Assembly (NCBI GenBank): GCA_001275005.1 | Contig: JWZX01001537.1 | Coordinates: forward strand, 1 to 33,674 | Direction of reading: 5' to 3' | DNA from: Chrysochromulina tobinii | Taxonomy: Eukaryota; Haptophyta; Prymnesiales; Chrysochromulinaceae | DNA length: 33,674 nt | Part shown: one piece after another, positions 112 through 21,845 of the stretch | Numbering within the stretch: the first letter of the stretch is position 1 | Layout of the letters: each line of letters opens with the position of its first letter | Made by a program: the position numbers and the translations under genes | Notes under the pieces: model-generated | What the model was told of the DNA's origin: nothing | Databases searched by the model: none | The model's input: only the letters and a program-made list of their open reading frames with translations

Positions 112-1823
112 AGTCGAGGCGGCTGCCGACGAGCTGGCAGCTCCCGGAGCACTGGGCGCCTCTGGTTTGGAGTATCCCAGTGCCGACAGGTGCAACGAGT
201 GCAGCAACGGAGGCAGTGGTGCCGCGACCAACGTGGCGGATCCCGCGGCAGCCCCACTAGCGGCGGCGGCCGCGGCCGCGGAGGCCGCGCTGTCGGAAGC
301 GTTGGTGGCGGTGGCGGCGACGGTGGAAGCAGCGGCGCTCGACACGGCGCTACACTCGAAGGCATTGCCGTTGGAGGTGGGCGAAGGCGCGGCGGGTGGC
401 GCGGCCGGCACCGTCACCCGAAGCGTCGTGACTGTCGCCATGCGCTGCTGCAGCGTCGCACAGTCGAGGTGGCGCGAGGAGCGCGTGTCCAGCGATGCCA
501 AGCGAGGGCTTCCGTGGAGCGCCGAGCTGAGCATCGGCGCGCGGAGGGCCTCACAGTCTCTCACCTGTGGGAAGAGGGTGGAGCGCCGTGGTGAGCGCAT
601 GCATGCAGCCGTAGCGTCACGTGGAGGGCCTCGCAGCCTCTCACCATGAGAGTGCGGAGCGCGGGTAGGGCCCACTCGAGCCGCTCCAGCTTGACGCACC
701 CGTCCAGCCGCAGCTCACACAGCGACGGCGCCGCGAGCACGAGGACGCGAAGCTCCTTACACCCAGCGAGGTCGATGCATCGCAACGCGGGGCAAGTGCG
801 ACACGCGAGCGTGAGAGCCTCGGGCCGGAGCTCACGGCAGCTCTGGAGCTCGAGGGTCTCAAGGGCCGGGCACACGAGGCTCGGCGTCGCGAGCGCGCGG
901 CAGCCAGAGAGCACCAAGGTCCGCAGCCTTGCCGCCTCGAGCGTTGGTGCCCGGAGTTGCGACACGCCGTAGCACTCGAGTACAGTCAGCTGGGGCAACG
1001 TGGCCGCAGCGCGGCTGATGGCGACGTCGCCGAGGCGCATGCACATGGAGACATCGAGGCGCGTCACGCGGCTCATCCGCGGCAGCAGCAGCTGCAGGCT
1101 CGGCTCCGAGAGGCGCGCGATCTGGCTGAGCTCGACGACCTCGAGCCGCGGCAGCACGTAGAGCGCTGCCGTCATCCCGGATTCGGAGAGGTCGCATCCC
1201 TTGGTGAGGAGCTGCGTGAGCTGCGGGAGTGCGCATGCAAGTGCAAGCAGCGTGTCGTCGCTCATGCGGCACCCGTTGAGCGCCAGCTTCTCGAGCCGCA
1301 GGCAGTGCTTGCCGATGGCGCGCACGCCGCGGTCGGTGATGCCCGATCCATTCCACGAACAGTCGAGTGTACGCAGGCCCGCACAGCTGCGCACGAGCCG
1401 CTCGATCGCCGCATCGGAGAAGCGGCAGTGTGCCAGCTGCAGCTGCAGCAGCTGCGGGCACTCGTGCACCAGCGCGATCAGCCCAGTGTCCTTGAGCCGC
1501 GGACAGAATGAGATGTCGAGCGACAGCAACCGCGAGCCGCAGGCACGGCCGAGGAGGCACAGGCCGCGATCGCTCACGCGCGAGCCACGCAGCTTCAGCT
1601 CAGATGCGGCAAAGTTTGCCATCACGCCGTCCGTGAGCGTGCCCTCAGCGATGCAGCATGCGAGCAGCCGCATGCGCAGACGCTCACTGAGGCTCGACAG
1701 CCGGTGGGGCGGACAGTGCTCCTCGGAGCCGAGATGCCGCGCTACCTCGACGCATGCGAGCGCGACAAGTGAGGGGTGGCCATCGCCGCCGCACATTGGT
1801 CGTTGCTCGCCGATGCCCTCCAT
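1..1823 (-). CDS. AMN1/F-box-like leucine-rich repeat protein, 3' end beyond window
   Basis: Exons are 645-1823 and 1-564, minus strand, joined in phase 0 across an 80-nt intron. The first ATG is at 1823; the longer open frame upstream opens only with TTG. Residues about 45-75 resemble an F-box/AMN1 N-terminus, and about 75-395 form a series of cysteine-containing leucine-rich repeats with recurring L..L.L..C..L.D.G units. This family typically recognises substrates for SCF ubiquitin ligases or acts as an AMN1-type mitotic-exit regulator; the exact role here is inference. After the intron the frame stays open to the window edge, and the LRR gives way to an Ala/Ser/Thr-rich tail ending in NAT repeats, so the C-terminus is incomplete. 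The gene is divergent from the next one, with about 250 bp between starts. Confidence 0.72.
565..644 (-). other. intron, introner family A, with duplicated exon sequence
   Basis: On the minus strand the donor GTGAGAGG begins at 644 and the acceptor CCCACAG ends at 565. The first 22 nt of the intron (644-623) match the first 22 nt of the following exon (564-543) at 20 positions. The rest holds GCATGCATGCGCTCAC and a pyrimidine-rich run, closely related to the two transporter introns at 6274 and 6556. Removing it restores an LRR reading frame that continues to the window edge. Confidence 0.75.
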
Positions 1824-2076
1824 CGAGGCGGCACCTAAGCGTCGCAGCCCAGGGTCTGCTTTTGCAGAGCCGAAGTGTTCGACACGACGGCTTGTCGTGA
1901 ACAATCACACCAAGGGCCCCGACATTCATACAACTTACGGTTCTAGCGAAATAACAGTGTTCGATGCGACGCGTGTGTGAAACCGCCTCGACGACGAGTA
2001 TGGGCACTCCACGGTCCCCTTCAAAGTTGTTTTTGTATTGTCCTCTTTTCGAAACCGCGCTTTCCGCACTTTGGCG
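1824..2076. promoter_or_regulatory. divergent intergenic spacer, presumed bidirectional promoter
   Basis: This 253-bp spacer lies between two head-to-head starts (ATG at 1823 on minus, ATG at 2077 on plus). No TATA box or clear motif stands out; the promoter role is inferred from orientation alone. Confidence 0.35.
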
Positions 2077-4263
2077 ATGTCGACCGTCCTGGCCTCTTTC
2101 GCCACGCTCCTCGGGGGCAAGGCGGCCAAAGTCGCGAAACCCGCAGAAGCTGCAGATATTTCGCAGGCCGCAGCGGTACGGCCTGCACGCCCACGCAACG
2201 CCGCTCTCGCAATGCATGGCTCGCCGCCACAGAAGCAGCAGCAGCTCACCGCCAATGACGCTTCACCGCCAGATCCGCTGCGAAGCCCGGAACCGCAGCC
2301 GCTGGCCGACGGCGACCGGCGTGAGATCACAAGGCGACTGACGGAGCGGCTGAAGAAACGGCAGATTCTGCCCGCGCCGCTGCCGCCCAACATTGCGAAG
2401 CCGCTGAAAGAGTCTGAGTTGTCCCGCTGCGGCGGCGAGAATGCAAAGATGCGACGCTTCCGTGAGCGGATCATGCACCGACATCACTTTGAAATGCAGC
2501 TCTCGGAGCAGTACATGGGACCAATCCCCGCCACGCACACGTCCACGATGGCCACCCCTCTTAGCACGAGCCGCACGGAGTCTGCGAGCTCGACCCTTGG
2601 CAGCCAATCCGACCCGTCAAAGGTGCCAGGGTACATGAAGCCTGTCCGGCCGCCAAGCGAGACCACGGTGCCGACGAGTGGGACCGAGGCACCGCCAGTG
2701 CCTGCCGGCTCCTGGCCAGCCGGCTCCTGGTTTGCCGGCTCCGCGCTTGAGGTTCCGATCGAGCCGACGGCGTCGACGGACCTCAAGTCGCTGGCGGGCA
2801 GAGAGGGAATGCTTACGCGGCTTCTAGCGAAGCACGTCAGCGACCAGCAGAGGGAGCTCGAGCTCTTCGAGGAGTATGCGCGCAGCCTTCGTATACCACT
2901 GGAGGAGGAACTCGGCAATATTCGTTCGCAGATCATCCTTATGACCACGCGCGCCGCCAAGTCTGGGCGGCCGAAGCCGTCGTCGGACCTCCGTAATAGA
3001 GAGTCGGAGCTCAAGAAGCTTCTCAGGACGCTCGAGATCGAGCGGCAGGAGGAGCTCGACTACTTTGAGCATCAGACGCACGGCCAGCGTCTGAAGGTGG
3101 AGGAGGAGCTCGAGCGCCTCCGTGCCGTGATAGCCTTGAAGGCCGCGCGCTCGGCCACTGGTCGGGTGTCAAATAGTCTCGACTACGAGATCGAGGAACT
3201 GGCCGCGGGCCTCAAGGAAACAATTCACTCGGGCGACACGCCAGTCATCGAGCCCGAGGTCTCAGGCTACCTGATGGGTAGCCCCGTCCCAGATTGGCAG
3301 GCTGAGGAGTGGACGTGGGCTGCCGCGGATGAATGGAGTCGTGCTGCTGAAGAGATGGTCCCAGCCACGCACAGTGGCAGCCCGCCGCGGTCGCCGCCGG
3401 AAATCCTTCGGCGCTGGCACGCCGATGTCCCAGTCGGTTTCGCAGACGAGGCCGAATCCAAGAGCGCAGCCAAGGCCGCCGCCGTCAGACCCTCTAGCCC
3501 CTCAGGGAACTCGGCCGGCTCAAGCACACAGCGGAAAAGCGTGCGGGAGGGGCGGGGAAGCATCAAGGGAGCGACCAACTCGGGCGTGCACAAATCTCCA
3601 CCAAGATCGCCCGTACGAGTTGCGGACGTGCTGGCAGTTGCCGGCTCGCCGGGCACGTTAGTGCCGATCGACCCCGCGAGTCCTGACCCACCCGCGTTCG
3701 ATCAGGTCGTGCCGTTCGATCCCGCGAAGGTGACCCTCATTGGAGGCCCGCGAGGCAATTACTTTGATCGGCGTGCGGCGCCTCTCGGCCCCGACGAACG
3801 CAAGACAGGCTCACCTTCGGGAAAGATGCATGCCGATCCCGAACGCCGCAAGCAGATCCGCGACCGCGACATGGTGTCCGAGATCGATTTCATCGTCGCC
3901 AAGCCGGGCTCAACCGAGAATGTCTGCAAAGTAAAAGAGGCGGGATGGGTGCCCTCGCAGGCGTGGTTTGAGCAATTGCGATACTATCCGACGAAAAACG
4001 AGGAGCTCAAGTACGGTGAATCGGAGGTGGCCTTCTCGGGCAACACGCACGGACCCGATCAGTTCGTCGTCCACATCGAGCAGAATGTGCGCACGCGATT
4101 GGGTATCGGGACCGCCGACCCCGATTGGCGGCCCGATCAGCTGCACCGCCGCTGGGCGACCAATCTGCCCAAGCACCTCGTTCACCCTCAAGCTCAACCG
4201 CCGGACGACCCGTACATTCAGGGGCGTCAACTTTATATGAGGACGCAGCCGGCGCGTAGGTGA
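2077..4263 (+). CDS. coiled-coil protein of unknown function with duplicated helical module
   Basis: The gene encodes about 728 aa from ATG 2077; an upstream in-frame extension opens only with TTG. I do not recognise a family. An N-terminal basic/Pro-rich region carries a helical stretch (REITRRLTERLKKR). Residues about 215-225 contain a triple AGSW-like repeat. Residues about 244-313 and 313-378 are two diverged copies of one coiled-coil unit, each with RQ.EL..FE, then EEEL...R..I, then an (A/S)xxGR turn. A Ser/Pro/Ala-rich linker follows, then a compact C-terminal part (about 560-728) rich in Trp, Tyr and charged residues (GNYFDRR, WVPSQAWFEQLRYYP) that may be a conserved domain. No membrane segment is evident. 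A cytoskeletal or flagellar scaffold would be a guess only. No introns are needed. Confidence 0.6.
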   Translation: MSTVLASFATLLGGKAAKVAKPAEAADISQAAAVRPARPRNAALAMHGSPPQKQQQLTANDASPPDPLRSPEPQPLADGDRREITRRLTERLKKRQILPAPLPPNIAKPLKESELSRCGGENAKMRRFRERIMHRHHFEMQLSEQYMGPIPATHTSTMATPLSTSRTESASSTLGSQSDPSKVPGYMKPVRPPSETTVPTSGTEAPPVPAGSWPAGSWFAGSALEVPIEPTASTDLKSLAGREGMLTRLLAKHVSDQQRELELFEEYARSLRIPLEEELGNIRSQIILMTTRAAKSGRPKPSSDLRNRESELKKLLRTLEIERQEELDYFEHQTHGQRLKVEEELERLRAVIALKAARSATGRVSNSLDYEIEELAAGLKETIHSGDTPVIEPEVSGYLMGSPVPDWQAEEWTWAAADEWSRAAEEMVPATHSGSPPRSPPEILRRWHADVPVGFADEAESKSAAKAAAVRPSSPSGNSAGSSTQRKSVREGRGSIKGATNSGVHKSPPRSPVRVADVLAVAGSPGTLVPIDPASPDPPAFDQVVPFDPAKVTLIGGPRGNYFDRRAAPLGPDERKTGSPSGKMHADPERRKQIRDRDMVSEIDFIVAKPGSTENVCKVKEAGWVPSQAWFEQLRYYPTKNEELKYGESEVAFSGNTHGPDQFVVHIEQNVRTRLGIGTADPDWRPDQLHRRWATNLPKHLVHPQAQPPDDPYIQGRQLYMRTQPARR

Positions 4264-4516
4264 TTGAGCAGCAAGCCAATAATCGATAGTTCGCTGAGCT
4301 CTGCAGGGGGGTAAGGATTGACTTTTCTAGACGTGAAGCACGCTGGCTGAATCGCCAGGAAAGAGACACCGATACATCCTCAAGAAAACGACCCAGGGGC
4401 CGCACATTCCACAGCAAACGCGGGGTCCCCGAGCCCGCGACGCCGACGGTGCGTCACAGCCTTCCGTCGATCCATCCTGGATCCATCCGTATTGTCTGCG
4501 TGGATAGTGGCGGCGT

Positions 4517-6964
4517 ATGCTGGGTAGCATACGGGCAGTATGCCGGGCATGCTCGTGCCGAGCGTGCTTTACCATCACCTTCGCCGCTCTTTGGGTGCTC
4601 TGCCTCTCGGGCCCGTGCTTTGGCTTCAACTCGCTCTACCCGGTGCTGTACGCCGAACAGCTCTTTGTCGACGCGTGCGATGCGGATGTTGCCGCCGTAT
4701 GCAAGGCAGCCATCAACACGACCCGAGGAGTGCCGTGCTGTGACGAGCAGAGCAAGAAGATCGTGATGCTCTCGACGATAACGCTCTTCGCTGAGGACGG
4801 CGTGCTGGTCCTGTACGGCGAGCTTCAAGACCGGGTGGGCGCTCGCAACTCGCTGCTGGTGGCCGGGTCGATCATGAGCACAGGGCTGGGGATACTGGCG
4901 TACAACTCGCTCATCGCTGATATCGAGCTGCTATGGTATTCGGGCTTCTTCCTGCTGGGTGTCGCGGGTCCTGGCATCTTCCTCTCCGCGCTCTCGCTCG
5001 GCGAGAAGTTCCAGGGGCTCGAACCGGTCATCACGCCGATTATCACGGCGATGTTTGATGCCTCATCGCTCGTATTCTTGATCTGGTCGGCCCTCTATGC
5101 CCAGGGGTCTGGCGTCCCATTCGCCACAATCCTCCTGAGCTGGCTAGGCCTCGCGTTACTAGCATCTGCATGCGTCTACTTCTTGATTCCGACCTACAAG
5201 GCACTACAGACGCTGCACCTGCAGCGGCAGGAGAACGCGCTGACTCGCTCGCGAGAGCTGCCAGACTCGCTCCTCGACCCCTTTTGTAGTACCTCGTCGC
5301 TCGCTGGAGGCGGATCCATGCGAGCGTCTCGAGAGTGCCTCGATCCCGACGCATCTCGTGGGAGATACACATCTCGAGAGTGCCTCGATCCCGACGCATC
5401 TCGAGGGAGATACACATCTCGAGAGTGCCTCAATCCCGTGCGGGAGCCCATCCCAGCAATGCACAGCCACGACGGGCAGACGCGGGAGGCGCACCACGAA
5501 GGCGGCGGCGGCGAGGGCGGCGGCGAGGGCGGCGGCGGCGGCGGCGAGGGCGGTGGGGGCGCGGTCGGTGTGAGCACAGCGGCGGCGGCGAGCGCTGCTG
5601 GGCTCGTGCACGCCGAGCAGTACCGCCTGTACTCTCACTACCGACAGCCTGAAGGCCTGCCCTATGGCCTCATTAGGGACGGCCAAATTAGGGACGGCCT
5701 CATTAGGGACGGCCAAATTAGGGACGGCCTACTTAAGGACGGCCTGATTAAGGACGGCCTAAGTAGGGATGGCCCGCCCTATGGCCCGCCCTCGCCCGGC
5801 AGGAGGATGCACTGGCAGAGGCCCACCAAAGCAGTGACGGCGGCTCCAACGGTGGCGCCAACGGCCGCTGCGGCGCGCCATCGCCATCGCCGCAGCGGCA
5901 TCATCCCAGAGTCGCTCAGCCATTGAGTGCGCCGATGCTCAACGGCTCCTCGCCCGCTCGTGTGGACCGTGAACATCGTGTGGACCGTGAACACCTTCGG
6001 CGCCGCTCACGCGAAGAGCTGCAGGCGGACGGGCGGCTCAATACGGCGCCCATGTTGCCGCCCGTCGGTAGGGACTCGCTCAATACGGCACCCCTGTTGC
6101 CGCACGTCGGTGGGGGCTCGCTGGTAGGAGAGGTGGAGGTGATGCATTACGACGACACGACGACGCTGCGTGAATTACTCTGTCGGACGGACACGGTGCT
6201 TATGGTGAGCTTCATGGCCAGCCTCAACCTGAAGCAGGCCTTTTACATCCAGACGGTCGCGCAGCAGCTTGAGGTGACCTGGGACCTCGAGATCTCGAAC
6301 CCTCATGTACTCTTAGCATGCAAGTGCTCACCACAGCGCCATCACCTCCCCACAGGTGACCTGGGACCTCGAGATCTCGAACCACATCTCGAACTACTTC
6401 AACGTGCTCTTCCCGGTACTCGCGCTACTCTCGACGCCCATCGCCGTATGGCTCTTCGCCAGGTTCCAGCATCGCGACCACGAGTACATGCTCGTGTGTG
6501 GAGGCCTCATGTCGGCCTGGGCGATCTGTCAAGGGATTCCCACAGTGGCCACCCAGTACGCTGCCGCGACGCTCTTCGGGCCGGCTGCATGCAAGTGCTC
6601 ACTACGATGCCTCCCTCCCCACAGGTACGCTGCCGCGACGCTCTTCGGGCCGGCGCGCACGCTCGTCTGGGCCGCGTACTTCCACTTCTTCCAGAACGCG
6701 GCGCGCTACCCGCCCTCGAAACTGGGACGGTTGATAGGCTACTCGAACCTACTGCTCGCCGTCGTGGGCGACCTCCCGCCGATTCCACTCTACTCGTATG
6801 TGAAGAACCAGCGCGATGACGCGGCATCGACCCTGGTGTTCACAGTCATCCACGCGGTGCTCACGGGCGTCGTGCTGGCGATCCTCGTCGTCCTAGTCGT
6901 CTACCTGCGCCGGCAGCACCGCCGAATGCTCGAGCGATTCACGATCATGACCACGGGCGCGTGA
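4517..6964 (+). CDS. major facilitator transporter, SLC43/FMP42-like
   Basis: Start ATG 4517, stop TGA 6964; introns at 6274-6355 and 6556-6624 are clear, and a third junction between about 5767 and 5926 is needed to change frame. The predicted product is about 740 aa. The N-terminal half has TM1 with PCFGFNSLYPVLY, a Cys-rich external loop (CDADVAAVC to CCDEQ), an MFS motif-A-like loop (GELQDRVGARNSLL), and further helices to about residue 235. The C-terminal half (from about 6140) has a second helix bundle including NLKQAFYIQTV and a basic cytosolic tail. This layout fits the SLC43/LAT3-like branch, amino-acid uniporters in animals; the substrate here is unknown. The central cytosolic loop, over 200 aa, is unusually long and is largely made of tandem peptide repeats. 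Confidence 0.62.
5327..5438 (+). repeat. 45-bp tandem repeat in transporter loop
   Basis: There are two full copies (5327-5371, 5372-5416) and a partial third copy. Each encodes a 15-residue unit SRECLDPDASRGRYT. The copies are almost identical, so expansion is recent or homogenised. Confidence 0.85.
5666..5770 (+). repeat. 15-bp tandem repeat encoding G-[LQ]-x-[RK]-D pentapeptides
   Basis: There are seven consecutive 15-bp units, the first GGCCTCATTAGGGAC. They encode GLIRD, GQIRD, GLIRD, GQIRD, GLLKD, GLIKD and GLSRD. The first four units alternate two variants. The repeat lies in the predicted cytosolic loop of the transporter. Confidence 0.85.
5834..5895 (+). other. candidate intron reconciling two transporter frames
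   Basis: The upstream frame stops at 5926, while the downstream transporter frame is open from 5767. A 62-nt GT-AG segment (donor GTGACGGC at 5834, acceptor CCGCAG ending 5895) has the right length modulo 3. An alternative acceptor (GCTCAG ending 5919) also fits, as would a sequencing frameshift. No target duplication is seen here. Confidence 0.3.
5958..6120 (+). repeat. 18-bp and 42-bp tandem duplications in transporter loop
   Basis: 5958-5975 and 5976-5993 are two copies of an 18-bp unit encoding RVDREH-like peptides. 6037-6078 and 6079-6120 are two diverged copies of a 42-bp unit encoding LNTAPMLPPVGRDS-like peptides. All periods keep the frame. Confidence 0.8.
6274..6355 (+). other. intron, introner family A, with 28-bp exon duplication
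   Basis: This is an 82-nt GT-AG intron in phase 0. Its first 28 bases (6274-6301) are identical to the first 28 bases of the next exon (6356-6383). The remaining core holds GCATGCAAGTGCTCAC and ends CCTCCCCACAG. Splicing joins TVAQQLE to VTWDLEISN and merges two frames. Confidence 0.85.
6556..6624 (+). other. intron, introner family A, with 30-bp exon duplication
   Basis: This is a 69-nt GT-AG intron in phase 2. Bases 6556-6585 are identical to 6625-6654. The 39-nt core begins TGCATGCAAGTGCTCAC and ends CCTCCCCACAG. It is a multiple of three with no in-frame stop, so a retained copy would add 23 residues including a duplicated YAAATLFGPA peptide. Confidence 0.8.
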
Positions 6965-7196
6965 GAGTGCCTGAGTGCGCCGTCACTGTGTGGAGAGAGA
7001 CAGTGCAAGAGTGCACCCCTTCACCGGACAGGGTGAGAGCCCATTCATTGCACATTGGTAGACCAGCAGCACCTCTCGAGATAGTCTGAGAGAGTGCAGC
7101 GCGGGCACCAACCACCGAGCAGAGTGCGGCTTAATTAATGAGGTTTGGAACTTCGGTAGAGTCCTATTCACAGATGTGAGATGAACATCGCAACAC

Positions 7197-8069: not shown

Positions 8070-8096
8070 CGAAACTGTGACGGGTGCAACATGACG
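8054..8096 (+). repeat. 18-bp direct repeat spanning a stop codon
   Basis: GACGGGTGCAACATGACG occurs at 8054-8071 and 8079-8096. The first copy holds the TGA stop of the glycosyltransferase gene. The arrangement resembles a recent 25-bp tandem duplication. Confidence 0.8.
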
Positions 8097-11199: not shown

Positions 11200-13111
11200 A
11201 TGTCGACTGCGATGATGTTGATGCTCCTGATGTTCTCGGTGCAAGGGAGTGTTTGCGCACTCATGAAAGTTCCATTTGTCACATCTGCCAGAGCCAATGC
11301 GCCTTCTACTATGAGCCGCGTGGATTCCAGCGCCTGGCCCATAAGATGCACGACGCCTGGAAGCAGCCGCCGCTGTGATTCGCCAATGTGCGCTCTGTCC
11401 CGCGGACCAATGTTTTCGCCGATGTTCTCAAGAGCCCGGGCTGTTCCGCAGACGGACTTGCTGCCTCGTATACCCGGGTCTCCGTCCCGCAACCGCAAAC
11501 CGGTCGTCAAGACCCCTGGCTATTTGACCACTGGTCCAATTCTGCTCTCGTGGATCGGCGCCATTGTGACTCTGATCTTGCAAGCATCGCTCACCGACTG
11601 GGCACAGCTCGGGCTGGATGCGCAAGCGACTTTTGGCTTTCTTTCAAATGACCCCACCTTGCAACGCGTTGCGATGTACTCATGCATCTTCGTATCCGCC
11701 TTCGGTTGGAGCGCTGCGGTTATGCCACGACTGCTACCCCCGAAGCAGTCGCAGCCAGATGCCGACGGGAAGACAGTCTCCCTTGAGGTGCCTCTCCGGA
11801 GCCCGAGCAGCATGGTGCAGCACCCGCTAAATGGAATCGACGCCTCATACATGGCTCTCAACGCGCTCTGCATGCCCGGCCTCTTCTATCACTTCATCTG
11901 CCTGATGCGCTCCTTCGGCCTTGACTTCGCCTCGCCGCCTATGTTCGGCATCTACCCCGAATCCCCATTCGAACTCGTGACACAGACATTGCCGGAACTG
12001 GTGGTTGCAGTGCCGCTCTACATGGTGAGCTACGAGTTCGTGTACTATTGGTGGCATCGCGCCATGCATGTTTCGCCCATCCTGTACAAGTGGGTGCACC
12101 GGCTCCCTCGGCTCTGATTGCCTCTGATGGTCGCTGATTGCATAGTCTCTGATGGCCTCTGATGGCCTCTGATGGCCTCGGATGACCCCCCTTTTCAGGT
12201 GGGTGCACCGGCACCACCACCAGCAGACGTACCCCGACCGCGGCCTCGTGGACACCTTCAACACGTGCTGCATCGAGTCGCAAGTGGGCCTCTACATGCA
12301 GCTGGGCGTGCTGTGGGCCTTCGATCGTGGCCTTGGGTACTCCAGCCTACCAGGCGCCATCTGGTTCTTCAGCATCGCAGGCTTGCTCTCTGTGCTCTCG
12401 CACGACAACATGGATCGCGCCTTGCCCTTTGATCTCTGGCGAGCAGACGAGCATCACATGCATCATGCGATTGCCAAATGCAATTACGCCCCATACACAA
12501 CGCTGTGGGACCGCGTCTTTGGGACGTATAAGGAATTCGAAGTGAAGCCCGTCACGGCGCCCCGCGAGCTACTACCGGAAGAGGCGATGGCGATTGCTTT
12601 CCTTCCGGTAGTAGCACGCGAACGCGAACCAGAAGGGTCGATGGCACTCGCCCCGATGCGCATCACCGTGTCGGACAGCGCCACCGCTGCTGCCGTGCCG
12701 CCGCTGGCAGAGCGAGAGAGGGAGATTGCAATCTCGAGAGAGAGTGAGATTGCGCGCTTGTCGGAACGCATCTGGAAGGCGGTCCATCACCGCCTTGGCA
12801 TCAGCGACGTCGCAAAAGAAGATGCGATGGAGATGAAAATGAGCCTCGCAAAAGAAGATGCCATCGGCGAGGACCGAGATGACCTCAATGACCTCATGGA
12901 CAGGTCCGCTGACAACGGCCGTCTCAACGGCTACTGCGACGAAGACGACGAGGCCTGCCGCCTCGAGGATCAGCTTGAACGTTCGCAGCTGGTCGATGGC
13001 GATAACATGGTAAAAATGCGAGGGCTCGCCTGGGGCTCCGCCTCGATCATCACCACGCTGCTGTTGTTGTTTGCTGCAATGATGATTTCCTCCGAGAGCC
13101 CGGCGCTCTGA
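11200..13111 (+). CDS. fatty acid hydroxylase / sterol desaturase superfamily enzyme
   Basis: Exons are 11200-12089 and 12199-13111, 600 aa in total. The start ATG 11200 gives a hydrophobic leader (MSTAMMLMLLMFSVQG) that may be a signal peptide. The histidine clusters that bind a di-iron centre are HRAMH, then HRHHH (formed across the splice junction), and DEHHMHH, the HxxxH, HxxHH and HHxHH pattern of PF04116. Hydrophobic helices surround them, so it is an integral membrane enzyme, probably in the ER or a plastid envelope. Substrate could be a sterol, fatty acid or sphingoid base; this cannot be told. The C-terminal third (from about residue 440) is an acidic, repeat-containing extension (AKEDAMEMKMSLAKEDAI) ending in another hydrophobic helix, not usual for the family. 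Confidence 0.8.
12090..12198 (+). other. intron, introner family B, CTGAT decamer array
   Basis: This is a 109-nt GT-AG intron in phase 2. GTGGGTGCACCGGC at 12090-12103 is repeated at the start of the next exon (12199-12212). The core is a run of about 10-bp units based on CTCTGATGGC, three of them perfect and consecutive, ending in a TTTTCAG acceptor. Splicing creates the second histidine box (K-W-V-H-R-H-H-H). Confidence 0.85.
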
Positions 13112-13214: not shown

Positions 13215-13353
13215 TCTACTATTTTATCCCCCCTGTTTGAGATATGCAAAAATTTCTCCTTCACAAGTTTAGTTTCCAAAAATAGAGCTCCACAAACGTA
13301 AACCGAGCACACAATCCGCCCGTCGACCGCCCGTCCCCAACAGCCTCGAGACC

Positions 13354-13686
13354 ATGGGCGGACATGATTCTTCGATCATGGTGCTATCCTCTTGCGCGCA
13401 AGTCACAACGTCCTGGCTACCGCGCTCCATCTACGTTCTGCTTCGCAAGATGATTCCATCACTGCCGAGCTCAGACCAGTGCCTCGAATACTCGAGTACT
13501 TCGGCCGGCAGCGCCTACGCCACCGCAGTCGACTGTGATGTTCGTAAGCAATCGCAGCAGCTGCCGCCGCCCTCGTCCAATCCACCACACCATTCTCATC
13601 AGCCGCTACATCATCATCATCATCATCAACAGCAGCAGCAGCAGCAGCAGCAGTGGCAGCATCGGCAGCAACGGCAGCAGGAACAT

Positions 13687-13717
<31 letters not shown>

Positions 13718-15264: not shown

Positions 15265-15885
15265 GTAAAGTACCCGATACGACTTCGTGGTCGCAGCATA
15301 CGCTCATCGCATGGCAGTAGGTGTTGAGTGTTTGTCTTGGTGGGCGTCATGCTCATGGCGCGTGATGCATGGGAGTTATACGCGGTTGTATACTGCCGTC
15401 GTATCCTCTCACGAGATGGTGCCGTCGCCACTCGGCTGGTGGGCCGTGGGCGGGTCGGCGCGCGTCCGGGCGCCGGCCCAGTTCATCTCCTGCATGTTAT
15501 ATCGTTTGCGGTTTGGCCGCGGGCGACCAGACCCCGGCGCCAGCCCGGGACCGCACGCGCGCCCCCCGCGCCCGCTCGGCTCGCCGGGGCCCAACCCGGG
15601 GATGTCAAACGCCGACGACGCCCCCTCGAACGGTAGTAGCTAGTACGGTACCGCTCGTCGAAGCTAACGTTCTGACTTCCGTTGAGCGCATGGCGACCCA
15701 TTGATACTAGCAGCTCTTAAGAGCAACCTTTCAATATAGAAATATAGGTACTAAAAAGGCAGAGGCACTCGTGATAGGCTTCGTCAGAGTAATTATTGGG
15801 CGGCGTCCGCGGTCCGGTCGCGGCGTCCGGTCGCAGCGGTTCCGAGCACCGAGGTTGGGCATAGCTCGCTGTTGGACTTCATCAC
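15265..15885. other. convergent intergenic region, no gene seen
   Basis: This 621-bp spacer lies between convergent genes. It contains very GC-rich runs (about 15520-15600) and an AT-rich stretch near 15730-15755. Small open frames are Arg/Pro/Gly-rich with no recognisable motif. It presumably holds 3' UTRs. Confidence 0.45.
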
Positions 15886-16731
15886 TCATAAACGCTCGCG
15901 TCTGGCCGGCACCGGCGCGAGCGCGTACGTGAGCCACGATTTGCGGTCGGCATCACCCAGGTTGGGTTCGGGTACGGGAGCGAAGAGGCTGGTGCAGGCC
16001 GAGCCGCGATAACGGTCCTCGAGGTAGTCGAGGGCCGTGCGCGCGCCGAAGCACTTGAAGCCCGTCGTAGGGTCCTCGAGATGCGGCAGCGGCGCGGGCA
16101 GGCTGGTGGGCACATGCATGTAGGGAAGCTGCAGCTCGCACAGGCGCTCACGCACGAGACGCGAGCCCTCATCCGGTTCGCAGCCGTGAAGCACGAGGGG
16201 CGTGCTCTCGAGCGCGTCTGCGTGCTGCGACGGGGCTGCCGCCATCAGCCCGGCATTGGGCAGCGGGCGCAACCCACTCGGCGCCGCTAGCAATGCAAAG
16301 CTGAGCGCGAGTGGAAGGACGTTACCATTGAGAATGGCGTCTTCCCGGGGTCGGTCAACATCGGTCCCATAGGAAGACCAAAGATGCTCACAAATCGCTG
16401 CGCTCTGGTTGAGCGTCACTCCGGCGGTGCGGTCCTCGAGGAATGGGAACAGTAGATACCCTCCGAGTGCCTTGATCTTGTGCTTGTGGCGCGCCAACGA
16501 CCCATATGCGCCTTCCAGCCGAAGAGTTTCACGAGGGCAAGGCAGTATTAATGCCCGCAGCCCGAGAACGCACAAGGTCTCCCGCACACGTCGGCAGTAA
16601 GGGGAAGCCTCGTATTCGTAGAGGATAAGCTCGGGCATCGTTAACGGCCCACGCCGCTGCGCCAAGTGAGCGCCGTTCCAGAGCCGCGTCGCCGAAGCCA
16701 ATCGGTGCCATGTGCTCGAGCATGATGACAT
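15886..16731 (-). CDS. tandem GST_N/thioredoxin-fold protein
   Basis: The gene encodes 281 aa from ATG 16731. Two thioredoxin-like GST N-terminal modules are seen. The first (about 33-115) opens with LILYEYEASPYCRRVRE, a glutaredoxin-like CxxC site reduced to SPYC (43-46) with the conserved VRE helix and a following PCPRET. The second (about 175-245) repeats the pattern (LVLHGCEPDEGSRLVRERL) without the active cysteine pair, and has the GFKCFGARTALDYLEDRY end of the fold. The arrangement matches plant and algal chloroplast proteins with paired GST_N domains (for example the At5g03880 type), which are poorly characterised. The N-terminal 30 residues are not an obvious targeting signal, so an upstream exon may be missing. 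A redox or glutathione-binding role is inferred. Confidence 0.7.
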   Translation of the reverse strand: MSSCSSTWHRLASATRLWNGAHLAQRRGPLTMPELILYEYEASPYCRRVRETLCVLGLRALILPCPRETLRLEGAYGSLARHKHKIKALGGYLLFPFLEDRTAGVTLNQSAAICEHLWSSYGTDVDRPREDAILNGNVLPLALSFALLAAPSGLRPLPNAGLMAAAPSQHADALESTPLVLHGCEPDEGSRLVRERLCELQLPYMHVPTSLPAPLPHLEDPTTGFKCFGARTALDYLEDRYRGSACTSLFAPVPEPNLGDADRKSWLTYALAPVPARRERL

Positions 16732-17231
16732 TTCCGGGGCTGCTCGGATTCACAGTCAAAGTTTATAACTCGACACCCAGCCTCTGGGACTTTCCCGTAT
16801 TTGAATTCACTCAATATGTACGAAATTAGCGGTGGCGCAGAATTATCGGCGTGAGCTCTAACACTGAAGTGTTTGAGAGAACTATGAATACAGTCTGTAA
16901 CACGAACGAAGAACGTTACAGCAGTACACGTGAACGGACAAGAAGGCACGAAGCAGGTGCTGCGCTATAAGCGCTACGCACGCGCGCCCAGCCGGGTCCA
17001 CGGCCCTCGCCCCCTTGACCCAATTTGCAAACTCGCGTATTCGACGTCTCTTATCCTAAACTGTACAGTACATTGTATCCCCGGCTTTACAGTTATTACC
17101 GTCCGTCCATCCGCTCGTCTCCGTTCCTAAACAGTGCAGTACCGGTATATTCTCAACAAAATTCCCTCTCCTCGGCACCCCAAATCCCTCTCCTCGGCAC
17201 CCCGTGGCTTCGCCGTCCAAAATAATTATCC
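16732..17231. promoter_or_regulatory. divergent spacer with 19-bp direct repeat
   Basis: This 500-bp spacer lies between head-to-head genes. TCCCTCTCCTCGGCACCCC is present twice (17163-17181, 17185-17203), about 30-70 bp before the EF-hand gene start, inside a pyrimidine-rich stretch. It may be an initiator/5' UTR element or a simple duplication. Confidence 0.45.
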
Positions 17232-19157
17232 ATGGATGACGACCACGAGGACGAAAACGACCCGTCCAACGGCATCATAGCGCAATCACTTCCGCCGGCG
17301 CCGGTGCCGAACGGCGTCAGTGACAGGCAGCTGCCGCCTGCTGCCGCCTCGCTTAGCTCTCTCAATCGCAGTCAGCACCAGTCAATGCGTCCGATGTTTG
17401 AGGTCATTGCACCGCACGGAGTCATTGTGCGCGAGAAAATTGAGACGGCGTCGCGAGAGGTTTGCACGCTACCTTACGGCTCCAAGGTGATTGTTGTCGA
17501 CGCGCGAAGGAATGGCGAGGGTGCCCACCGCGTGTGCATCAAACATCCTGGCGTTCAGAATTCGCTTGGCTGGATCACAGCAAAGAAGCAGGAACGTGGG
17601 GAGACGAATGTAATGATCAAGGAGATTACCGAAGAGGCCTCTCATTCGCATGAGCCCCCCGGCAGCCACCATCGTCTCGTAACGCCATTGTGGGCCAGCA
17701 CACCCCCTGCATCTGCCCGCGGGCCCAGCACAGGACGAGACCTCCCAGGCTCATCACGTGGCTCCGCACGCGGCTTAGGCTGGAGCATATTGCAGCCGTG
17801 GGGAGCTCGGGCAACGCCCTCGTCTGCAAGTGGTTCCCACTCTTCTCTCTCAGATAGTCGATACCTCGCTTCAGCTCGAGGCTATGGATCTGCAAGAGCC
17901 AGCAGCACCGGTTCCCTATCTGCTAGAGGGAACCTCCTCTCGCCGTCAAGTGTCATCTTCCACAGCAGCACGCCTGGCACGCCGGGTTTCACACGCCGAC
18001 AATTCATTATTGATGCCGCCAAGACGGCACGAGAGGCAGCAGAGGCCAGCTTTCGGGCGAGCAGGAGCGGTAATGCCCCCGGTTTCTTCACTGGAAGAAG
18101 CGCCTCGAGTGCATCGAGTGAGGAGCCGAAGGCCCCGCGAGCGGCACACTCTCCGAAGTTATCCTCGCCGGACAAGGCTAAACGCGGCGGCAAGGTGAAT
18201 TCTGCGTCGCTGCTGATTACGTCGGCCGCACTCGAGGGCATTGCAGTCAATCTGCAGCAGCAGGCCGACACTCTGGAGAAAGGATTTGGACTCGAGAAGA
18301 CGGTTGCTATCCTGCTGGGCGAGGTGCTCTCGGCGCGCAACGTCAAGTTGGCCCAAATGGTCAAGCAGTTGGCTAAAAATGGCGAGGACCCTATTTCAAA
18401 GATGGAATTTCGACAGCGTGTGCGCAAACTGCTTCCCAAGGTGGATACGATCAAGATCGATGCACTCTTTGTGGAGTGGGACAAGGATGGTGGCGGCTCT
18501 CTGGACGTGGACGAGCTCAAGGATGCCCTGAGACAATGTTGCGAGAGTGCAGCAAAATATGCGGAGCTGTCGGCGAACGCGCGTTCAAAGATCACGCGGC
18601 TGCAAGAGCGCATGGCGCAAGCGCGAGAAGCGGCAGCCGCCATGGCTGCCGTCGAAAACGCCAACGTGGAGATCGAAAGGATCTCCGCGATGGTGAACAC
18701 GAGCACTGAGTTCCGGCTAGGAACGTTGCTTTTGCAGAAAGCGTCCAGCTTGAAGATGTCCGACATCGTGCGAAAGTGGGATGCGAACGGTGATGGGAAG
18801 ATTGACCCCGACGAGTTCAGACTGAATGTGAAGAAGCTCGGTCTTGTCGCGCCCAATTTCGAGATTGACCGGTTGTTCAGGGACCTAGATGTCGACAATG
18901 GTGGCGACCTCGACGAAGACGAGGTCAAGCAAGGGTTCCGCGACCTGATGGAATCAGCATCAAGGGATGCAGCGCGCCAAAAGGAGCTGCGACAGACATT
19001 GTCTGCGCTCGTGAGTTCTGCACGCGCGTTGCAAGCCGAGCTCCGCAAGCGGAATCAGGAAGAAGAGGCAGCCGCCATTCAGGAAGAAAAGGAGGAGGCT
19101 GCAAGGCAGGCGAAGGTGGCCACGTCGGCGAAGGTCATGGCGAATGTGACTTGCTGA
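17232..19157 (+). CDS. EF-hand calcium-binding protein with N-terminal SH3-like region
   Basis: The gene encodes 641 aa, single exon; ATG 17232 has CCATGG context. Residues about 55-120 form a small beta-rich region (MFEVIAPHGVIVREK to LGWITAKK) resembling an SH3b-type fold; this is a weak call. A Ser/Ala/Gly-rich linker with repeated SARG motifs follows (about 150-310). The C-terminal half has two EF-hand pairs: a degenerate loop at about 382-393, canonical DKDGGGSLDVDE (417-428), DANGDGKIDPDE (517-528) and DVDNGGDLDEDE (553-564), the last three with all ligand positions occupied. An alpha-helical stretch rich in Ala, Arg and Glu separates the pairs, and a charged coiled coil ends the protein. 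It is probably a cytosolic or cytoskeletal calcium sensor; partner unknown. Confidence 0.78.
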   Translation: MDDDHEDENDPSNGIIAQSLPPAPVPNGVSDRQLPPAAASLSSLNRSQHQSMRPMFEVIAPHGVIVREKIETASREVCTLPYGSKVIVVDARRNGEGAHRVCIKHPGVQNSLGWITAKKQERGETNVMIKEITEEASHSHEPPGSHHRLVTPLWASTPPASARGPSTGRDLPGSSRGSARGLGWSILQPWGARATPSSASGSHSSLSDSRYLASARGYGSARASSTGSLSARGNLLSPSSVIFHSSTPGTPGFTRRQFIIDAAKTAREAAEASFRASRSGNAPGFFTGRSASSASSEEPKAPRAAHSPKLSSPDKAKRGGKVNSASLLITSAALEGIAVNLQQQADTLEKGFGLEKTVAILLGEVLSARNVKLAQMVKQLAKNGEDPISKMEFRQRVRKLLPKVDTIKIDALFVEWDKDGGGSLDVDELKDALRQCCESAAKYAELSANARSKITRLQERMAQAREAAAAMAAVENANVEIERISAMVNTSTEFRLGTLLLQKASSLKMSDIVRKWDANGDGKIDPDEFRLNVKKLGLVAPNFEIDRLFRDLDVDNGGDLDEDEVKQGFRDLMESASRDAARQKELRQTLSALVSSARALQAELRKRNQEEEAAAIQEEKEEAARQAKVATSAKVMANVTC

Positions 19158-19679
19158 GCACCCCAAGTCCTTGACAACCCGCGAGACTCTTTCTCAGTCC
19201 CACACACCGGACAGTCTTATTAGGCCGGTGTTCGGGATTGGACTTTTACTCATAGAGGATAGACTCAGCTGCGTAGCCGCGTACAAGGTACGCTACTAAT
19301 CTAGTAGACTTGCCCACGTCTTATCGACGTCTACTCGTATTTAACATGTCGGTACACGCGCTGTGAACAGGAGGTGAAGATTCAAGATACAGCCGGCAGT
19401 ACCTCGCACTTGCGACTACCGCGCCTGTCGAGTAGGAAATTCCTAAACACCTCGCCTCTCATTCACAAGTGAAGAGACAAGCAAGCAAGCTAATTAGTCG
19501 AAACACACTGAAGAGTCAAGCGAAGCGGCATTGCCCGTGCGTCAAACAGTGTGCCTGTGGGGAAAGACGTGTTTACTCGTCACGCCGCCGCCGCCCGCCC
19601 AAGGCCCAAGCCACCCGCATCAACGCTGCGAGCTCTCGCGTGCTCCGCCCAAGGGCCAAGCCACCTTTGCGCTTGCGCA
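19158..19679. promoter_or_regulatory. spacer before the ABCG gene with imperfect 21-bp repeat
   Basis: This 522-bp spacer separates two plus-strand genes. A 21-bp segment containing CGCCCAAGG.CCAAGCCACC is present at 19595-19615 and 19645-19665 (20 of 21 identical), 15-85 bp before the chosen ATG. The frame is open through both copies, so the true start could lie further upstream. Confidence 0.45.
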
Positions 19680-21845
19680 ATGCGTCAGATTTCTTCTTTC
19701 CTCGTCGCCATTGCGGCTGTCGCCGGGCGGCTTGCGTCGCCGAACGACTTGGGTGCGCGGCGTTCGGCTGAGGCGGCACCCCAGCAGCCAACTCTCCTTC
19801 GCGGCGGTGGCAGCGTGCACTCTCCTTTTCGATTGAAGGGATCCCGTTCTGCGTCCGTAATAGAAGGCGTCGACCTCTCCTTTTCGGACCTGTCCTTTAC
19901 GGTCAAGGACGGCATGAAGACCATCCTTTTCAATTGCAGCGGGCACGCCACACGCGGGCGGTTGCTCGCCATCATGGGACCTTCGGGTGGCGGCAAGACC
20001 ACGTTGCTCAATGCTCTCTCAGGCAACGTGAAAGCTAGCAAAGGCGCGTCGCTGAAGGGCACGTTGCTCTGCAATGGTGAGCAGTGCGGCGGCGCATCTC
20101 AGGTGCCAGGGCTGCGCATGGCCTTCGTGCAGCAAGAGGATACCTTTTACACGCAGATGACTGTGCGCGAGACCTTGCTGTTTGCCGCACGGCTGCGCCT
20201 GCCCAGCAGTGTGTCTCTCATAGAGAAGGAGCGTCGCGTGGACGACATCATCGCCAAGCTGTCGCTCGTCAAGGCGGCAGGCACGATCATCGGCGATGTC
20301 AAGCGGCGCGGTATCTCGGGCGGCGAGCGCAAGCGCCTCGCCATCGGGTGCGAGTCGCTTGATTGCCACTGATGGCCATTGATTACCACTGATGACCTCC
20401 CTTGATGGCGCGGGCCAGGTGCGAGCTGCTATCAGACCCGCAGCTTCTTTTTTTGGACGAGCCCACGAGTGGACTGGACTCATTCCAGGCGCAACAGGTG
20501 GTGCAGTCCCTCAAGGCTTTGGCCGACGAGGGGTGCACGGTGGTCATGTCGATCCACCAGCCGCGCGGCTCCATCTACAACCTCTTCGACGACCTTCTCC
20601 TCCTCTCCGAAGGACGCGTCATGTACGACGGCACCGCCGCGGGCGCAGCTGCCTATTTCGGCAGCCTTGGCCATCTTTGTCCGGCGGGCATCAACGCGGG
20701 CGAGTTTGTCGTCGACTTGGTCTCGGTGCCATACGGCAGCAAGGACGAGGAGGGCGAGGCACATCGGCGTATCCTCGAGTTGGCAGCTGCCGCCAAGCAG
20801 CAGGCGGCGAATGGTGGCCTCCGGTTTGGTCGACGCGCCAGTGCCCGAGACGCCGTAGCGAGCACTGGCGAGGCGGCGAGCGGCAACGCCCGGTGGCGCC
20901 GTAGTGGGCAGGTGCAGGCAGGCTCGCGCTGGACGCAGTTTCGTCTTCTCTTCCGTCGCGCGTGGAAGGAAGTCTCTCGATCCAAGGCCGCCTTCTTGAT
21001 CAAAGCGTCACAGCAGTTGATGATTGCCCTCATCTACGGAGGCATCTACTCCCTCGGACGTACGCAGAGCTCGATCCAGGACCGTTTCGGCCTGCTCTCG
21101 CTCGTGGCCATCGGTGCGGGCAATCTCGCCATCGCGAGCACCATCCGGACCTTTCCAAAAGAAAAGGCCATCGTGGCAAGCGAGCGTTCAAAAGGCATGT
21201 ACACTGTCGCGCCTTACTTCCTCTCAAAGGTGCTCCGCTGATCCTCCTGATTCCTCTCATTCCTTCCGATTCCTTCTGATTCCTTCTGATGGCTTCCTCT
21301 CGAAGGTCGTCGCCGAGGCGCCAGTCTCGGCGCTCATCTCGGCGCTCGGCGGCGTGGCGCTCTATCCGCTCGTGGGACTCAACCCGCAGCCGGGCAAGTT
21401 TCGCAACTTTCTGATGACGCTCGTACTCGAAGGTTTCGCCTCGGGCGCGCTCGGCCTCCTACTGGGCGCCGCCGCTCCCACGACTGACGTGGCTCTCGCC
21501 ATGTTCCCACCGATCCTCGTGCTCATGATCATCTTCAACGGCTTCAACCTGGCCGAGGAGAACACGCCTAAAGTGCTCCGCTGGCTGCCCAAGGCTTCTT
21601 TCATCCGCTGGTGCTCTGAGGGTCTCGCTGTGAACGAGTTCACCGGCCTCACCTTCTCGTGCGAGGGGAGCCGCGGGCCTTGCGCGCAGACTGGCGAGCA
21701 GGCGCTCGAGCGGGTTTCGTTCCAAAAATCGACGGTCCGGCACGCGGCCATGATGCAGAGCCGGATCATCGGCGCGTGCTACGGCCTCACGTTACTCATG
21801 CTTCAGCGCAACAGGCCCAAGTTCCTGAGTGTGACGCCTGCGTGA
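19680..21845 (+). CDS. ABCG (white/WBC) half-transporter
   Basis: Exons are 19680-20347, 20419-21229 and 21306-21845, 672 aa. The nucleotide-binding domain comes first, as in the ABCG subfamily: Walker A GPSGGGKTT, Q-loop FVQQED, signature ISGGERKRL, Walker B LLFLDEPTSGLDS and H-loop SIHQPR. A linker and a six-helix domain follow, with ABCG-typical features (FPKEKAIVASERSKGMY before helix 3, NGFNL at the end of helix 5, and a Cys-containing external loop SCEGSRGPC). ATG 19680 yields a hydrophobic leader MRQISSFLVAIAAVAG that might be a signal sequence. Half-transporters work as dimers and export lipids, sterols or xenobiotics; the substrate is unknown. Both introns are family B introner-like elements; the first falls right after ISGGERKRLAIG. 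Confidence 0.9.
20348..20418 (+). other. intron, introner family B, CTGAT/TTGAT array
   Basis: This is a 71-nt GT-AG intron in phase 2. Its start (GTGCGAGTCGCT) matches the next exon start (GTGCGAGCTGCT) at 10 of 12 positions, the first seven identical. The core has five CTGAT/TTGAT motifs spaced about 10 bp apart (TTGATTGCCACTGATGGCC). Splicing yields AIGCELLSDPQLLFLDEP, the expected family sequence. Confidence 0.85.
21230..21305 (+). other. intron, introner family B, mirrored duplication
   Basis: This is a 76-nt GT-AG intron in phase 0. Here the last bases of the intron (CTTCCTCTCGAAG, 21293-21305) duplicate the last bases of the upstream exon (CTTCCTCTCAAAG, 21217-21229) with one mismatch. 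The duplicated copy therefore supplies the acceptor and the element supplies the donor. The core is a CTGATTCCTT-type decamer array. Confidence 0.85.

Follow-up and report, generated by a model that had tools for sequence, protein, structure and literature searches.

The window, by which we mean the whole 33,674-nt stretch of Chrysochromulina tobinii DNA that was analysed (contig JWZX01001537.1), carries an LRR-type gene, a membrane-protein gene, a fatty-acid-hydroxylase gene and an ABCG transporter gene, and among these lie short introns bordered by repeated exon sequence (Table 1). The reference for scoring each intron in its register was the full set of 52,286 G[TC]..AG pairs 55-130 nt long on the two strands of the window, the introns themselves among them. 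The earlier note had listed six introns with an exon duplication. Four of them reach P<=1.1e-4 (565, 6274, 6556 and 12090); the intron at 20348 is weak taken alone, and that at 21230 is duplicated in mirror register, its AG coming from the target and its GT from the element, the opposite of the two insert families F1 and F2 described below. Between 22.4 and 33.7 kb, where the introns lie that the earlier note gave as duplication-free, no pair within the 55-130 nt covered by the scan scores >=11, longer introns falling outside it.

Table 1. Introns of the window with duplicated exon sequence, their duplicates, and P from the window pair scan
Feature	Position	Strand	Details	P
F1 introner intron	565..644	-	80 nt; LRR-type gene; core GCATGC..CACAG at 565-606; joined frame open	9.6e-5
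Intronic copy of 25-nt duplicate	620..644	-	22/25 identical to 540-564
Exonic copy of 25-nt duplicate	540..564	-	partner of 620-644
F1 introner intron	6274..6355	+	82 nt; membrane-protein gene; core 6316-6355, filler 6302-6315	3.8e-5
Intronic copy of 28-nt duplicate	6274..6301	+	28/28 identical to 6356-6383
Exonic copy of 28-nt duplicate	6356..6383	+	partner of 6274-6301
F1 introner intron	6556..6624	+	69 nt; same membrane-protein gene; core 6587-6624, filler 6586	1.9e-5
Intronic copy of 30-nt duplicate	6556..6585	+	30/30 identical to 6625-6654
Exonic copy of 30-nt duplicate	6625..6654	+	partner of 6556-6585
F2-type intron	12090..12198	+	109 nt; fatty-acid-hydroxylase gene; CTGATGGCCT repeats; 3' end TTTTCAG	1.1e-4
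Intronic copy of 14-nt duplicate	12090..12103	+	identical to 12199-12212; 17 nt with one mismatch
Exonic copy of 14-nt duplicate	12199..12212	+	partner of 12090-12103
F2-like intron	20348..20418	+	71 nt; ABCG transporter gene; 7-nt duplicate only, 20348-20354 / 20419-20425	7.8e-4
F2-like intron, mirror register	21230..21305	+	76 nt; upstream exon 21217-21229 copied at intron 3' end 21293-21305 (13 nt, 1 mismatch)	1.9e-4

Removing one copy of the duplicate together with the core leaves open frames in all four intron-bearing genes, in agreement with the earlier claim that this restores the gene; in the membrane-protein gene the joined frame is open only from 5923 on, because the frame changes near 5926. 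The FA_hydroxylase match (PF04116) is not interrupted at 12090-12198, and the joined ABCG protein gives matches to ABC_tran and ABC2_membrane.

The closest proteins with a named source are from haptophytes. Relatives differ in the presence of these introns. Intron 6556-6624 is present in proteins P0121 and P0122 (34 and 4 member sequences), which contain the duplicated exon and the core, and absent in P0123 and P0124; at 12090 the intron is absent, at protein level, in P0125-P0128, P0132 and P0134. P0001 (98-99% identical) and P0002 are continuous at 20348 in ABCG and diverge from the protein at 21230-21305, as if reading into an intron. At the DNA level, one F1 intron has its empty site on metagenome contig L129, itself chimeric, where the 25-nt duplicate occurs once.

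Two core families and their duplicates

Two unrelated short cores recur across the genome (53 Mb, assembled in 2,253 contigs). By pattern search F1 lies at 1,924 places and F2 at 1,864, and the reversed patterns, run as controls, at 0 places each. That such places are introns was looked at only in sampled copies, from about 250 kb of the 53 Mb; the loci were not random, 20 for F1 being best BLAST hits and 60 exact matches taken by contig number, and those for F2 the first ones listed. In these samples highly similar introns occupy many unrelated sites, as introners do. Each runs from the exon into a duplicate that begins with GT, then into the core (branch-point-like motif, pyrimidines and CAG) and then into the GT-duplicate again; CTCAC in F1 and CTGAT in F2 may be such a branch-point motif. 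The inserted part, filler included, measures 38-76 nt in F1 and 22-91 nt in F2. After 321 exact F1 cores with CCACAG, GT follows in 281 and GC in 17, and the polypyrimidine parts of F1 appear, by inspection, to vary among copies more than the duplicates do. In the typed consensus strings, F1 has no terminal inverted repeat beyond CTG, and F2 has an inverted CTGATGA...TCATCAG of 7 nt, at which ten perfect F2 inserts start inconsistently. A scan of prokaryote genomes with F1 and of viral contigs with F2 gave no match in a set outside which near relatives possibly lie.

For F1, 138 core hits yielded 113 copies whose 3' junction and flanks were usable, then 76 scoring >=14 once tandem copies and duplicates were removed, and then 61 with a flush start (counting one on the plus strand of L071 that resembles a reverse-strand artefact). 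For F2, 40 loci yielded 51 sites, 34 of them scoring >=13, 23 of those flush and 18 without tandem cores. Counted against shuffled intron-exon pairs, as the earlier note had proposed, a duplicate scoring >=14 is found in 81/113 F1 copies versus 1.9% of shuffled pairs, leaving 32/113 without a clear one, and in 31/51 F2 sites versus 8.6%.

The duplicates start exactly at the junction in 61/76 cleaned F1 copies and there measure 17-48 nt (quartiles 24/28/33). Across 79 clean copies the mean is 28 nt (sd 7.5), and the 35 that are 100% identical span 15-51 nt (mean 27.2, sd 7.6), which is not the spectrum of a fixed short target duplication; this spectrum is common to both unrelated cores. An untargeted scan of 214 kb found 355 non-tandem direct repeats, whereas one Markov shuffle of that sequence gave 3. 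Their left boundary is AG|GT in 59/355, third behind TG|AT and GA|GG (62 each), a rank that we think reflects the F2-type repeats filling the list. Only 32/79 clean copies have AG before the insertion. A search in mirror register returned 14 rows, many of them repeats or F2 repeats read from the other strand; the believable cases are L017:3262 (31 nt), L015 (30 nt) and window intron 21230, and their inserts do not end in AG.

Joining out the intron restores the frame by codon score (6.84 at offset 0 and 7.00 at offset 3, against 0.66-2.14 at offsets -2, -1, 1 and 2; n=79). Open frames discriminate poorly in this GC-rich genome, wrong offsets being open in 60-64/79, about as often as the right join, so the codon score does the work. 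That the intron is kept as coding sequence was considered and rejected (51/79 loci open with the intron retained, 64/79 joined). Insertion is in sense orientation in 51/61 best frames and 21/22 strong ones. Sense was called with a codon model for which six genes of the window served as training set, and since that model was right in 156/171 training windows, 51/61 lies somewhat under its best.

Duplicate length and a floor on intron length

The shortest of the 79 clean introns is 63 nt. When the duplicates and inserts of the 35 perfect introns were re-paired, the mean minimum was 46.9 nt and 0/5,000 re-pairings reached 63, and the two lengths compensate (rho -0.69, n=35). The floor is not absolute: the excluded L011:5041 measures 59 nt from alignment start and 61 from GT, and the excluded L023:3934 measures 60 nt, within a repeated stretch having longer alternatives. 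Four of 76 F1 copies, none flush, fall below 63 nt from alignment start (45, 59, 60 and 62), or 54, 61, 66 and 72 with the start offset added.

Introns much shorter than 63 nt were thus not seen, suggesting that a half-intron survives only with a long enough duplication; together with the length compensation, this implies that a 40-nt half-intron would work only where the duplication brings in a 5' splice site and the necessary spacing. The existence of two insert families, and the need for a long duplication to reach minimum intron length, go beyond the earlier note. With a floor of about 60-63 nt, the way in which introns are inserted can be tied, in measurable terms, to a constraint of the spliceosome.

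Routes of insertion

Near-identical cores, the shuffled-pair test, frame restoration, protein relatives lacking the intron and one empty site support insertion with target-site duplication, which the earlier note had put forward. At a probability of roughly 0.55, our preferred reading is that these are introner-type gains of a 3' half-intron with a long target duplication, likely RNA-templated. By sequence, there are two multicopy cores, duplications, restored frames, absence in relatives, one empty site and length compensation; splicing, an RNA template, a reverse transcriptase and the positions of the nicks are what we infer, the restored frames and the continuous domain matches bearing on splicing indirectly. 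Only the 3' half of an intron (branch-point-like motif, pyrimidine stretch and CAG) would be inserted, and its insertion would copy mostly 15-51 nt of target. The duplicate left of the core would form the beginning of the new intron, GT included, with the AG coming from the core; the right duplicate would stay exonic, so that the mRNA is unchanged if the intron is spliced. The most likely template would be an RNA whose last bases are a 3' splice site; target-primed reverse transcription would start from a nick immediately ahead of a GT and stop short of the RNA's 5' end, and a second nick would lie about 28 nt away.

The 5' ends bear on this reading. The filler measures 0-36 nt in 75/76 F1 copies and 83 nt in one, and fillers share suffixes of at least 5 nt in 16/37 (mean 2, max 10, in 500 shuffles). 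Of one rare 5' extension, 24 and 16 nt remain in two L014 copies, and L026 may retain 7 nt; this extended F1 form, found at 7 places on 2 contigs, shows truncation and gives no general statistic. RNA-templated insertion would be favoured over a transposase by the variable length of the duplication, by 3' ends that are fixed while 5' ends vary, and by the lack of an F1 inverted repeat. Reverse transcriptase is available in the genome, with 26 RVT_1 matches, 22 of them over cut-off. SINE-like retroposons, which insert by target-primed reverse transcription, have a fixed 3' end, a variable 5' end and variable target duplications; F1 and F2 differ from them in having no tail, in being far shorter, and in that a copy within a gene must be spliceable to survive.

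Several observations count against an RNA template. Selection for exact splicing could produce both the flush AG|GT and the shared, truncated and variable 5' ends. The copies inspected show no poly(A) or other 3' tail, their junction being CACAG|GT, and no reverse transcriptase is tied to the cores. The mirror-register inserts, not ending in AG, are not predicted by a model that inserts the 3' end of an excised intron. Also counted against it are the inverted F2 motif, the F1 copies without a clear duplicate, the third rank of AG|GT and the limited share of insertions preceded by AG, the polypyrimidine variation and the sub-63-nt copies.

A more specific form of RNA-templated gain, tied to splicing, is possible and is put forward tentatively: a nick ahead of a GT in an expressed gene would receive a copy of the 3' end of an intron RNA, from branch point to AG, and a spliceosome minimum of about 60-63 nt would select the survivors. 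Any intron 3' half could then be a donor, so that unrelated cores would have one 28-nt duplication spectrum. The origin of spliceosomal introns is an old open question that becomes testable in a genome like this one, where similar introns number in the thousands, some of them very young, and where duplication, insert and splice signals are legible at single-base resolution. Our results suggest that less than a full intron can be mobile, with the target able to provide the front half; RNA-templated gain, if true, would be a third route next to DNA-transposon introners and reverse splicing.

Introners are described from algae, dinoflagellates, fungi and other groups by Gozashti et al. 2022 (PMC9860276), whose available sections give duplications of 3-9 bp for previously characterised families; at mostly 15-51 nt the present ones lie beyond that range, as the earlier note had held. 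Those introners are alike in being near-identical introns at many sites, in splitting the splice site between element and target duplication and, in most families, in leaving mRNA length unchanged; they differ in that here the duplications vary, the core is the 3' half only and F1 is without a clear terminal inverted repeat. Introners from a Chrysochromulina sp. metagenome, also a haptophyte, likewise have no TIRs and a target duplication, but one of 4 bp (PMC9860276, Fig. 2C legend), and there the 5' splice site comes with the element and the 3' one from the target, a mirror of F1 and F2 and like window intron 21230. For Amoebophrya, the portion available of PMC7789003 similarly reports repeated introns with direct repeats at their borders; those elements have direct repeats of 3-5 nt, inverted repeats of 8-20 nt and many non-canonical splice sites, whereas F1 and F2 mostly pair GT or GC with AG and F1 lacks the inverted repeat.

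An unlikely alternative is that a transposase making a long stagger mobilised short non-autonomous, MITE-like DNA elements, with AG supplied by the element end and GT by the duplication. Such a model has been published for many algal introners with TSDs, and the available part of PMC9860276 describes the same arrangement; the 7-nt inverted repeat of F2 fits the model. It sits poorly with duplications as variable as those of the 35 perfect copies, with the missing F1 terminal inverted repeat, with the spread of 5' fillers and with one duplication spectrum for two unrelated cores.

We also consider it improbable that repair of staggered double-strand breaks captured intron-derived DNA or cDNA, only spliceable pieces surviving, as proposed for the neointrons of Daphnia pulex. 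Repair would account for the variable duplication, the variable 5' end, the mirror-register cases and the length filter, and in Daphnia, as far as the sections available of PMC4202315 go, the exon end is likewise repeated at the opposite end of young introns, with presence/absence polymorphism. Those repeats, however, are 4-12 bp, against mostly 15-51 here; the spliceable-looking junction repeats that we inspected hold F1 or F2 cores and not random DNA (by reading, uncounted), and each core recurs at about 1,900 places. Window introns 20348 and 21230, with 7 and 13 nt, are near the Daphnia-type repeat length.

Compared with our preferred RNA-templated insertion, a route in which intron RNA is reverse-spliced into an mRNA, with reverse transcription and recombination as later steps, is very improbable. 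The sense orientation of insertions before GT resembles the use of proto-splice sites, yet target duplication is not expected from this route, which is disfavoured because most F1 copies carry a duplicate; moreover, the empty site carries a single copy, and the donor's own 5' part is uncopied.

Finally, the assembly is fragmented and short repeats do arise by chance in GC-rich DNA, but we reject assembly artefact and chance as next to negligible, given the shuffled-pair test, the Markov shuffle, and P0121 and P0122 with their copy of the window's 6556-6624 intron.

Duplicated exon sequence at the window introns

The earlier note held that six introns of the window carry exon sequence repeated at one end. 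We set the start of each intron in register against the beginning of the following exon, and its end against the tail of the preceding exon; P is given relative to all 52,286 G[TC]..AG pairs that the window offers on its two strands at a length of 55-130 nt. All six introns do carry such sequence, over 7-30 nt and at P of 1.9e-5 to 7.8e-4. In five it is downstream exon; only the sixth, 21230-21305, departs from this, having instead the mirror register, in which the end of the upstream exon is copied at the intron's 3' end, so that AG comes from the target and GT from the insert. The introns at 12090 and 20348 have longer inserts (95 and 64 nt, respectively) with duplicates of 14 and 7 nt.

Introns of the window, and mirror-register introns, with their duplicates (the P range applies jointly to the first four rows)
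Intron	Strand	Duplicate	P
6556-6624	+	30/30 identical	1.9e-5 to 1.1e-4
6274-6355	+	28/28 identical	1.9e-5 to 1.1e-4
565-644	minus	22/25 identical	1.9e-5 to 1.1e-4
12090-12198	+	14 nt, exact	1.9e-5 to 1.1e-4
20348-20418	+	7 nt	7.8e-4
21230-21305	+	mirror form: 13 nt of upstream exon, 1 mismatch, at 3' end	1.9e-4
21230-21305 with its exon copy, 21217-21305		mirror register: 13 nt of upstream exon	
L017:3262-3420		mirror register: 30-31 nt of upstream exon	
L015 3676-3815	minus	mirror register: 30-31 nt of upstream exon	

Removing one copy plus the core restores the genes, as had been claimed: once exons are joined, the proteins are open over 530 aa (hydroxylase), 672 aa (ABCG), 296 aa counted from 5923 (membrane protein) and 608 aa up to the window's edge (LRR-type, 2 stops if left unspliced). 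In the joined proteins, an FA_hydroxylase match (PF04116) runs unbroken over the site of intron 12090-12198, and ABC_tran and ABC2_membrane matches span the ABCG protein, whose nearest named relative is from Prymnesium parvum (P0013, 62-63%); Emiliania huxleyi is the sole organism named among the hydroxylase matches. These relatives make a haptophyte genome probable. The membrane-protein gene (4517-6964) gave no Pfam family above cut-off; relatives nevertheless align over its junctions. Its frame shifts near 5926, between ORFs 4517-5926 and 5923-6819, which may reflect a missed intron or an error in the sequence, and ATTAGGGACGGCC-type tandem repeats lie directly ahead of this change, at 5665-5785.

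Two core families and their duplicates across the genome

We scanned the 53.15-Mb assembly (2,253 contigs) for the intron cores, i.e., the 3' halves with a branch-point-like motif, pyrimidines and CAG. Introns 6274 and 6556 have in common a core of family F1, GCATGCAAGTGCTCAC[CT]AC...CACAG, and intron 565 holds a diverged form of it. Matches to the 25-nt F1 head with at most 2 mismatches number 919 + 1,005 = 1,924, versus 0 for a reversed-pattern control. The unrelated F2 core consists of CTGAT..CCT repeats with the 3' end CCCTCATCAG; its CTGATNNCCTCCCTCATCAGGT occurs at 917 + 947 = 1,864 places with at most 1 mismatch (control, 0). Introns 12090, 20348 and 21230 are F2-like by their repeats, not by the exact 3' end. 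The two families adjoin within the same stretches (e.g., locus L023). F2 variants at L012 minus ~6365 and L017:2470 end in CCCTCATTGCATGCAG, then GTGCG, resembling the F1 start GCATGCAAGTGC, and F1 may derive from such an end.

Counted against shuffled intron-exon pairs, the duplication held in the copies sampled from the genome. The 3' junction and both flanks could be read for 113 of 138 F1 core matches, and a duplicate score of at least 14 was reached in 81 of these versus 1.9% of shuffled pairs; for F2 the figures were 31 of 51 sites versus 8.6%, a high control that is probably due to the repetitiveness of F2 cores. In 61 of the 76 F1 copies kept once tandem and duplicate rows were dropped, the duplicate starts at the very base after the core AG and measures 17-48 nt (quartiles 24, 28, 33); it starts with GT in 64 of the 76 and with GC in 6. 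F2 gave 23 flush duplicates (median 27 nt). Genome-wide, the 321 exact F1 cores with CCACAG are followed by GT in 281 cases and by GC in 17. An untargeted scan of 214 kb returned 355 non-tandem direct repeats versus 3 in a shuffle; 59 had AG then GT at the left border, and two other borders were slightly commoner (62 each), probably because of F2-type repeats. Across 79 copies the duplicate began with GTACG in 23, GTGCG in 15 and GTGAG in 8, with AG preceding in 32, while the second-cut end displayed no clear motif among 35 copies.

The flush F1 duplicates exceed the published lengths consulted, in line with the earlier note. In the portions available, one study gives 3-9 bp for previously characterised introner families and 4 bp for those of a Chrysochromulina assembly (PMC9860276), and others give 3-5 nt for Amoebophrya introner repeats (PMC7789003) and 4-12 bp for Daphnia exon repeats at introns (PMC4202315); likewise within the portions available, a survey of direct repeats close to splice sites is without introner duplications (PMC11782384) and a report on mirusvirus introners leaves target-site duplications unmentioned (PMC12768974). 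None of the matches listed, judged by titles and abstract openings, describes long-duplication introners or half-intron inserts, which is no proof of novelty, as subscription introner papers lay outside the search.

Evidence for gain of the introns in genes

When the flanks of 79 clean copies were joined, the best sense codon score reached 6.84 with no offset and 7.00 with an offset of 3, versus 0.66-2.14 at offsets -2, -1, 1 and 2 (open frames by themselves fail to discriminate offsets). The score peaks at 0 and 3 only, and the frame is therefore kept to the base; judging from sequence, the copies resemble genic introns. Of 61 F1 copies, 51 had their best frame in sense, as did 21 of the 22 strong scorers. 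Insertion indifferent to both sequence and gene would be expected to leave most survivors in non-coding DNA without GT after the core; the GT or GC after 298 of 321 F1 cores would argue for target preference or insertion into expressed genes.

Relatives support the earlier suggestion of insertion with target-site duplication. Database proteins are unbroken over 6556-6624 (P0123 and P0124, 63 and 65%; P0123 over 6274 too), over the hydroxylase intron site (P0125-P0128, P0132, P0134) and over 20348-20418 (P0001, 98-99% identical; P0002, 90-91%). Others contain intron sequence, and we assume these to be predictions made without splicing: P0121 and P0122, whose identity beyond the intron is 100 and 97%, read through 6556-6624, duplicate included, in frame, P0158 and P0161 apparently start inside the hydroxylase intron, and P0001 and P0002 diverge at 21230 as if the intron were being read. 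The best evidence that the introns were gained, not lost, comes from DNA. The last 375 bases of IMG/VR record L129 correspond to the locus that holds F1 intron L010:1517-1591, with flank identity of 97-98%; a 25-nt duplicate is present once in L129 and twice in L010 (24/25 identical, L129 matching the intronic one), where a 6-nt filler and the 44-nt core separate the copies, a net insertion of 75 nt. Homology begins abruptly at base 4180 of this probably chimeric record, which calls for caution, and deletion between the two repeats could also recreate an empty site. In this record of a viral collection (metagenome 3300027760), the algal gene fragment is 375 bases long and closes with an F1 core.

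Proposed insertion mechanism and length filter

The insert mostly has a constant 3' end, CAG (the 61 flush copies of 76), and its 5' end is variable. Of 76 copies, 75 have a filler of 0-36 nt between duplicate and GCATGC (at most 2 nt in 33) and one has 83 nt. Fillers of different copies have a common suffix of at least 5 nt in 16 of 37, whereas 500 shuffles gave 2 such cases on average and never more than 10. A rare 5' extension ahead of GCATGC, CCTTGGAGCCTGGCCAGCT, occurs at 7 places on two contigs, and 24 and 16 nt of it form the fillers of two L014 copies; 7 nt recur in an L026 filler, possibly by chance. Such shared, shortened fillers look as if a template had been copied with its 5' part truncated. 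We favour target-primed copying of an RNA ending at the 3' splice site, which gives the observed order of parts: the bottom strand would be nicked ahead of GT, cDNA synthesis would start from the RNA's CAG end, copying would be left incomplete, and a second nick would fall ~28 nt off. Reverse transcriptase genes are present (26 RVT_1 matches in the genome, without link to the cores). As the mirror-register introns show, an insert can have an end other than AG, and this speaks against a strict target-primed model. Break repair capturing intron pieces agrees with the geometry, but the inserts are restricted to two cores. A transposase fits poorly, given the variable duplication lengths and insert ends.

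In 35 perfect-duplicate copies, duplicate and inserted lengths were anticorrelated (rho -0.69, P 4e-6), and their sum had an sd of 8.0 versus 14.1 expected under independence. The minimum sum was 63 nt, both here and across all 79 clean copies; random re-pairing gave minima of ~47, with 0 of 5,000 reaching 63, and two excluded loci were slightly shorter (L011:5041, 61 nt; L023:3934, 60 nt). On the simplest reading, this alga's spliceosome would need ~60-63 nt, so that short half-introns would persist only where the duplication is long. The great duplication length would thus be due in part to this filter, and unselected duplications may include shorter ones.

Tandem introns or cores recur at equal 70-75 nt spacing (L010 minus 2470 and 2545, L015 minus 3751, C158:17161-17328, C107:2616-2777), so that a single intron, once inserted, apparently multiplies in tandem. 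At L009 minus 4168-4344, five F1 core heads, each with an identical extension, follow every 44 nt in one stretch.
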